Of a stretch of 40,249 nucleotides of DNA, positions 34,836-36,158 are shown in pieces. Source of the stretch: a virus; IMG/VR virus record IMGVR_UViG_3300046028_002417, positions 1 to 40,249 of that record. One strand, 5' to 3'. The translations under genes and the position numbers were made by a program. Each line of letters opens with the position of its first letter. The first letter of the stretch is position 1. Below the pieces are notes generated by a model. That model did not search any database. It was not told the DNA's origin and saw only the letters and a program-made list of their open reading frames with translations.

Positions 34836-36158
34836 ATGAAATATCTGTCGGTCTGTTCCGGCATTGAAGCCGCGACTGTTGCATGGCATTCGCTAAGATG
34901 GAAACCAGCTGCGTTCTCAGAGATCGAAGCATTCCCGTCTGCTGTGCTGCAGCACCATTATCCCGACGTTCCGAACGTCGGCGACATGACTAAATTTAAC
35001 GAATGGAATTTCAATGAGCCAATTAAACTTTTGGTCGGTGGAACACCTTGCCAGTCATTTTCCGTTGCCGGACTCCGCAAAGGACTCGCAGACCCAAGAG
35101 GAAACCTTGCGCTTACGTATGTCGGAATTCTTGACAAGTTTAGACCCCAGTGGTGCTTATGGGAAAACGTGCCAGGTGTCCTCAGTTCAAACGGTGGACG
35201 GGACTTTGGTTCCTTCCTTGGGGCGCTGGTCGAAATCGGGTATGGGTTCGCATATCGAGTCCTTGACGCTCAATATTTCGGAGTGGCACAGCGACGCCGT
35301 CGTGTGTTCGTTGTCGGATATCTTGGAGACTGGCGACCTGCCGCAGAGGTTCTTTTTGAGCCAGAAAGCCTGCGCGGGAATCCTGCGCCGCGCAGAGAAA
35401 CGGGGAAAGAAATTGCCGGAACCTTTACGGCACGCGCTAGAAGCGGTGGTTGGGGATCAGACGTAGATTTGGCTGCTAGTAATTATATGCAGCCGGTAAT
35501 CAGCATGGCGCACGGCCAAGCTGGCGCAGAAATCCGCGTTGATGGCGGTGCGCCGACGCTAACCTGCAATCATGAAGCGCCGATAGTGGCCGGGACACTA
35601 TTAAAAGGCGGTAATTCTAATAACCCGATTGATGAAACCTTAATTCCTGCTTACGGCATCGCAGGAAACATTATAGAGCGCCAGCCGCAAAACGGCGGGA
35701 ATGGTCTGGGTTTCAGTGAAGAAGTTTCCTACACGTTGACCAAAACTGATCGGCATGGTGTGGCGCAGCCTGTCGGCGTAACGATCCACGGCACTGACGG
35801 AACCGTAAACGTCGCTTCATACACCGAACTGTCCAGCGCGTTGCGGTCACGCATCCCTAGTGGCGTGGAGAACAGCACAACTACTGCCGTGCAGCACGCT
35901 ATGGCCGTCCGCCGCCTAACCCCAGTCGAATGCGAACGCTTGCAGGGGTTCCCCGACAATTACACCAACATTCCGTGGCGCAAGCAGCCGACCGCACCGG
36001 ACAAGCCGCGGTACAAGGCGCTGGGCAATTCAATGGCCGTTCCGGTCATGGCGTGGATCGGCAAGCGCATCGCAATGGTTGATGCGATGCAGAATGCCAA
36101 TGACAACAACGCAGCCGCAAACAATAACCGTCCAGCCGCCGATGAGGCCGTTGCATGA
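34836..36158 (+). CDS. C5-cytosine DNA methyltransferase
   Basis: A 440-aa Dcm-type enzyme with motif I SVCSGIEAATVAW at residues 5-17, the catalytic PCQS (C72), ENVPG at 110-114, QRRRRVF at 152-158, a variable target-recognition part (about 185-360) and the C-terminal motifs LTPVECERLQGFPDNY and ALGNSMAVPVM. An AGGGGA Shine-Dalgarno precedes ATG 34836. It probably protects phage DNA from restriction. Between residues 60 and 210 codon use shifts to CTT/CTC and GGA, where another gene is overprinted (35014-35466). The C-terminus is Asn/Ala-rich. Confidence 0.93.
   Translation: MKYLSVCSGIEAATVAWHSLRWKPAAFSEIEAFPSAVLQHHYPDVPNVGDMTKFNEWNFNEPIKLLVGGTPCQSFSVAGLRKGLADPRGNLALTYVGILDKFRPQWCLWENVPGVLSSNGGRDFGSFLGALVEIGYGFAYRVLDAQYFGVAQRRRRVFVVGYLGDWRPAAEVLFEPESLRGNPAPRRETGKEIAGTFTARARSGGWGSDVDLAASNYMQPVISMAHGQAGAEIRVDGGAPTLTCNHEAPIVAGTLLKGGNSNNPIDETLIPAYGIAGNIIERQPQNGGNGLGFSEEVSYTLTKTDRHGVAQPVGVTIHGTDGTVNVASYTELSSALRSRIPSGVENSTTTAVQHAMAVRRLTPVECERLQGFPDNYTNIPWRKQPTAPDKPRYKALGNSMAVPVMAWIGKRIAMVDAMQNANDNNAAANNNRPAADEAVA
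35014..35466 (+). CDS. Overprinted gene within the cytosine methyltransferase gene
   Basis: A 150-aa frame, +1 relative to the methyltransferase, fully inside it and covering its PCQS, ENV and QRRRR motifs. The protein starts MSQLNFWSVEHLAS and ends with CSLSDILETGDLPQRFFLSQ, then KACAGILRRAEKRGKKLPEP. I recall the same ending in annotated hypothetical proteins near methyltransferases in other phages, which supports real coding, but this was not checked. Leucine is mostly TTG here. The upstream GGAAT may serve as a weak Shine-Dalgarno. Function unknown. Confidence 0.68.
   Translation: MSQLNFWSVEHLASHFPLPDSAKDSQTQEETLRLRMSEFLTSLDPSGAYGKTCQVSSVQTVDGTLVPSLGRWSKSGMGSHIESLTLNISEWHSDAVVCSLSDILETGDLPQRFFLSQKACAGILRRAEKRGKKLPEPLRHALEAVVGDQT

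Follow-up and report, generated by a model that had tools for sequence, protein, structure and literature searches.

Does the long open reading frame that lies in the +1 frame inside a phage cytosine DNA methyltransferase (MTase) gene encode a protein of its own, and what might that protein do? The gene is part of a phage record of IMG/VR (IMGVR_UViG_3300046028_002417), whose positions 1 to 40,249 are referred to as the window. The initial annotation of this stretch had proposed that a second protein is overprinted on the catalytic core of the enzyme, and a 150-codon frame starting with ATG is indeed found on the same strand wholly inside the MTase gene, spanning MTase residues 60-210 including the PCQS, ENV and QRRRR motifs (Table 1). 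The change of codon style noticed in this interval was borne out by counts: leucine is encoded in the overlap by CTT (8), CTC (3) and CTG (2) and glycine by GGA (11) and not once by GGC, compared with a phage-wide usage of CTG for 277 of 429 leucines and of GGC for 245 of 413 glycines. Judged by the sequence evidence set out below, the nested frame is almost certainly a real protein-coding gene, and the best explanation overall, to which we assign a probability of about 0.75, is that of a genuine nested gene that arose by an ancient overprint and encodes an accessory protein linked to the MTase.

Table 1. Positions of the MTase gene and of the features of the nested frame in the window.
Feature	Position	Strand	Basis
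C5-cytosine DNA methyltransferase gene, host frame, 440 aa	34836..36158	+	Pfam PF00145 E=4e-53, TIGR00675, phrog_116
Nested ORF, probably overprinted, 150 aa, ATG start, +1 frame relative to the MTase	35014..35466	+	ORF list; conserved frame, synonymous-site suppression, stop avoidance
GGAA, a weak Shine-Dalgarno-like sequence 5 nt upstream of the ATG	35005..35008	+	sequence directly; relatives have AAGGAG before TTG/ATG
QLNFW codons near the hidden N-terminus, resembling the sliding-clamp-binding motif QL(S/D)LF	35020..35034	+	motif enrichment; consensus from PMC9690074
Hidden protein, conserved C-terminal domain (CSLSDILETGDLPQRFFLSQKACAGILRRAEKRGKKLPEPLRHALEAV), two helices predicted	35308..35454	+	hidden frame better conserved than MTase frame here; AlphaFold2

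When the synonymous codons of the MTase were shuffled, the frame stayed open in 0.4% of the shuffles with the gene's own codons and in 1.3% with phage-wide codon usage. When a profile was built from relatives alone, the hidden protein of the window matched it with 256 bits, compared with 86 ± 13 bits (maximum 132) for shuffled versions encoding the identical MTase protein. Since the shuffles rarely remain open and score so much lower, the nested frame is not explained by chance. The same data bear on the idea that similarity in the hidden frame merely reflects conservation of the MTase protein. This idea draws on the fact that the N-terminal half of the hidden protein overlies conserved MTase motifs, where ordinary bacterial MTases also match weakly (E about 1e-4 to 1e-8), but it does not account for the gap between 256 bits and the shuffles of the same protein, and conservation of the hidden frame is strongest where the MTase is variable. 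In addition, among 29 ordinary bacterial PF00145 genes used as a control, the corresponding 450 nt contain 1-16 stops (mean 7), and none scores above 17 bits. We regard a mirror of MTase conservation as refuted by the shuffles, by the conservation of codons 176-200 described below and by the stops in ordinary MTases, and hardly credible as an explanation.

Stop codons were then counted in loci chosen without the hidden frame, i.e. MTases fetched only by C-terminal or N-terminal regions outside the overlap, of which 148 had full coverage. All 148 contain the hidden C-terminal motif (19 were missed by a strict pattern and seen on inspection). The frame is stop-free in 137 loci, and in 10 of the other 11 the stops precede a start located further downstream (MQLTMF..., P1-like clade). 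The initial annotation had named stops scattered through the frame in relatives as the pattern that would tell against a gene; a stop within the expected ORF occurs in only one of the 148 loci (L246). The remaining frame contains 1-12 stops in every one of them. Taken together with the small fraction of open shuffles (0.4-1.3%), the nested frame is open beyond what the host frame forces.

Conservation was measured on 122 non-redundant MTases of this unbiased set. At fourfold degenerate codons, the probability that two genes share the third base is 0.63 in the overlap versus 0.31 outside (Mann-Whitney p=6e-35), reaching 0.83 in codons 161-200; the synonymous suppression in the host frame, for which the initial annotation had called for a test, is strong and confined to the overlap. 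In MTase codons 176-200, amino-acid sharing is 0.68 for the hidden protein versus 0.35 for the MTase. Here the first, second and third MTase codon positions are conserved at 0.44, 0.68 and 0.77 in place of the usual high/high/low, which identifies the free position as MTase position 1, the wobble position of the hidden frame. A larger, biased set gave the same phase pattern, with columns such as these (CTT 93/93, GGA 111/111, CCG 80/80). Constraint at the nucleotide level of any kind, be it RNA structure, a DNA element or codon-choice control of MTase translation, would likewise cut synonymous variation and leave the open frame as a by-product. However, the variation follows the periodicity and phase of +1 coding, with codons 176-200 free at the hidden third base while the MTase residue varies freely, stops are avoided in the +1 frame only, and starts with Shine-Dalgarno sequences are conserved. 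An untranslated nucleotide element would not produce the wobble phase of the hidden frame, and we consider nucleotide-level conservation highly improbable overall. Stop avoidance and synonymous suppression in relatives thus both support the view that the catalytic core of the enzyme carries an overprinted protein.

Initiation signals of its own accompany the nested frame in relatives. Genes of the main clade encode the MTase residues KEW as AAGGAG TGG in 66 of 71 cases versus about 13 expected from the use of AAG and GAG (each about 43%) elsewhere, and AAGGAG is a perfect Shine-Dalgarno sequence located 7-10 nt before a TTG or ATG. The P1-like and Bacillota clades have other conserved ATGs as starts, with purine-rich leaders, and the leader of the window copy is weak (GGAA, spacing 5). 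We infer that translation of the hidden frame would begin internally on the MTase mRNA, at a start with a ribosome-binding site of its own that is conserved in relatives. A programmed frameshift in place of an internal start is less likely, because start codons and leaders are conserved.

How widespread the nested frame is was assessed by tblastn with the hidden protein, which returned 133 phage records, 531 plasmids (mostly P1-like) and at least 240 IMG/VR stretches. The MTase lies in the same relative frame at 178 of 180 loci, and the other two are mycobacteriophages in which the MTase is interrupted by an intron or HNH gene. The nested frame is present in phages of Pseudomonadota, Mycobacterium, Bacillota and Akkermansia, in a methanogen virus, in dmt of P1 and in Bifidobacterium plasmids. 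Diverse copies, including those of Mycobacterium phage Dove, P1 Dmt, Ruminococcus, Terrisporobacter, Streptococcus, Vibrio and Pseudomonas phages, Akkermansia phage Chantilly, Methanobacterium virus Drs3 and Bifidobacterium and Pantoea plasmids, have in common the C-terminus L(S)xxLE...KYYLSxKACxGILRRAEKRGKxLPxxLxxAL. In a plasmid copy from Acinetobacter soli (L098), the hidden frame is interrupted by an early stop. HNH-containing insertions split the MTase in the mycobacteriophages Schatzie (L087:1324-2847) and Thibault (L102:820-2621), and in the latter the hidden frame is already annotated as gp104. The statement in the initial annotation that similar hypothetical proteins occur near MTases in other phages holds only insofar as a few copies, such as gp104, have been annotated. 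The 139-residue family phrog_16143 ('DNA methyltransferase') was matched by 18 of 24 hidden proteins (best E=5e-29) and is, by sequence, the family of the hidden protein of the window. Its label and that of phrog_1008 (see below) appear to be borrowed from the overlapping gene, since the members examined are hidden-frame proteins outside the MTase frame.

A tree of the catalytic halves placed 28 of 29 MTases of the window's family (family A) in one clade (99/95) with ordinary MTases outside, and gave the MTase of the archaeal virus Drs3 a separate long branch; this tree used columns of the overlap and is not independent of the hidden-frame trait. Because the MTase is widespread and the second frame is restricted to certain clades, the hidden gene is taken to be the overprinted one. 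It would have originated on a pre-existing phage C5-MTase, and early, as one archaeal virus shares it with phages whose hosts belong to several phyla. A gene nested completely and on the same strand in the best-conserved region of an enzyme, and maintained over this range of viruses, would rank among the most widespread overprinted genes of DNA phages. Textbook phage P1 carries the hidden gene (in dmt), and so do hundreds of P1-like plasmids, nearly always without annotation. The hidden frame is under strong protein-coding selection in viruses with very different hosts; a widely sequenced phage MTase gene thus appears, from these comparisons, to carry a second gene that is almost wholly missing from annotation. 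A gene is lost when phage MTases are annotated in a single frame or their codons are recoded, and the role of phage orphan methyltransferases becomes directly testable, as the second protein can be stopped with the enzyme unchanged.

The hidden protein of the window had no Pfam or NCBIfam match in profile searches and no match in a sequence search of the PDB. AlphaFold2 was confident only for the C-terminal 40 residues, predicted as two helices (block means 76-92 for residues 111-150; overall mean 57, pTM 0.28), and the product is accordingly pictured as a small protein that would combine a flexible N-terminal half with a conserved two-helix C-terminal domain. Foldseek against the PDB and viral models gave no significant match; the best viral one (E=0.008) was Thibault gp104, which belongs to this family and was called at the point where the MTase is interrupted by an intron. 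The independent, non-overlapping homologues that the initial annotation had suggested looking for did not turn up: a query with the C-terminal domain against 50,697 phage records matched 144 records, and the 60 of these matches that were listed all lie in MTases, in hypothetical proteins (those opened were MTases) or in unannotated stretches, with no stand-alone homologue among them. Every copy examined is embedded in an MTase gene or, as with one bacterial copy (L186), in an MTase remnant. The absence of stand-alone homologues leaves coding unrefuted and points to a function tied to the enzyme. We found no description of this overlap in the literature, although coverage was incomplete and this counts as weak evidence.

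Since no copy of the hidden gene turned up outside an MTase gene or remnant, a functional link to the MTase is favoured and, on this pattern of occurrence, probable, although the linkage could be forced by the overlap itself and not by function. The hidden protein would most likely work with the MTase, as an accessory or regulatory subunit made at the same place and time, which favours the methyltransferase partner suggested in the initial annotation. Alternatively, the protein could be coding but independent of the MTase, serving anti-restriction, anti-defence or host takeover, e.g. as a blocker of the sliding clamp. A small phage protein fits such a role and its clamp-like motif (see below) would suit a replication inhibitor equally, but copies were never found outside the MTase gene or its remnant and no defence protein was matched beyond a marginal Type II MTase (PADLOC, MTase_II only, E=0.0035, in a library of defence and not counter-defence proteins). 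Such a role is unlikely, and the early guess of an anti-restriction or anti-defence protein gained no positive support from Pfam, NCBIfam or fold matches.

For the favoured role as an MTase subunit there is a precedent. In EcoHK31I, too, the ORF for the beta subunit overlaps that of the alpha subunit in a different frame. M.EcoHK31I is the nearest precedent for a C5-MTase requiring a second small polypeptide and, like M.AquI, it is a two-subunit C5-MTase that needs a second, smaller polypeptide (PMC3404938). The small subunit of these enzymes provides missing MTase motifs (IX, or IX-X), whereas the hidden protein of the window has no MTase motif and the window MTase, unlike an EcoHK31I-type large subunit, retains its own C-terminal motifs (RRLTPVECERLQGFP, GNSMAVP). 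A displaced MTase motif, as in the EcoHK31I-type beta subunit, was therefore rejected.

The N-terminus of the hidden protein carries a motif, Q[LMI]x[LMF][FLWYM], in 66 of 120 members of family A versus 3.3 expected from synonymous shuffles. It recurs at a second, independent site, the displaced start of the P1-like clade (9 versus 0.6 expected), and at MTase codon 62 the enzyme residue varies between S, T, P and A while the hidden residue is Q in 77 of 122. The bacterial sliding-clamp consensus is QL(S/D)LF, and DNMT1 is recruited by PCNA (PMC9690074). The strict QL(S/D)LF form is rare in family A (2/120), the window has QLNFW, the motif is missing in nearly half of the family, and W or L as fifth residue is atypical. 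Based on the enrichment, the consensus and the DNMT1 case, we put forward tentatively that an N-terminal Q-[L/M]-x-[L/M/F]-[F/L/W] docks on the bacterial sliding clamp and would couple methylation to the replication fork; a tether of the MTase to the clamp by this motif is a speculative reading of the motif counts. If the motif works here, the logic would resemble that of the DNMT1-PCNA pair (PIP box), in which a clamp-binding peptide brings a cytosine MTase to the fork, but in the phages the peptide would reside on a separate overprinted protein, and the likeness is one of analogy without homology. Doubtful, too, is the broader proposal that the overprinted protein is a clamp adaptor tying viral methylation to the fork, a counterpart of DNMT1-PCNA acquired at least two times (families A and B).

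Family B corresponds to phrog_1008 and occupies the same +1 frame and position on another C5-MTase clade (100/98), with the layout QLTLF...LANLSVLPGSEKARKMTVTSGRK...LWPTP repeats...LNPxWVExLMGFPxGWTD (loci L376:1315-2019, L378-L437 and L356-L366). Its N-terminal motif, mostly QLTLF, was found in 34 of 58 members versus 1.4 expected. The frame is purely nested at 53 of 61 loci, with a G+C content of 0.33-0.60; the selection signal of this family comes from loci chosen by the hidden protein and is only supportive. Like the window family it is widespread and nested in a C5-MTase, but it differs in its C-terminal half, in its MTase clade and in being annotated already in some phages, such as gp50 of Paenibacillus phage Diva, a phrog_1008 member in the same position and +1 frame that is called 'g49 internal gene' in GenBank. 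By sequence, the two families look unrelated.

At several loci, frame changes fuse the MTase and hidden frames into one ORF (L099:1599-2216; L126:2202-3179; L390, L410, L419, L423 and L425), joining either the MTase N-terminus to the hidden C-terminus or a hidden ORF running into the MTase C-terminus, as a result of sequencing error or real fusion. Finally, in two chromosomal bacterial MTases, L182 (match at 1501-1932, - strand) and L185 (match at 1501-1926, - strand), the +1 frame is open over a long stretch and contains remote forms of the C-terminal motif (KRYWLKPQQALRVLESASRNGKKL; EKYFLSQNAATGILRRVDRMGRNL), a hint that the hidden gene may be distributed more broadly.
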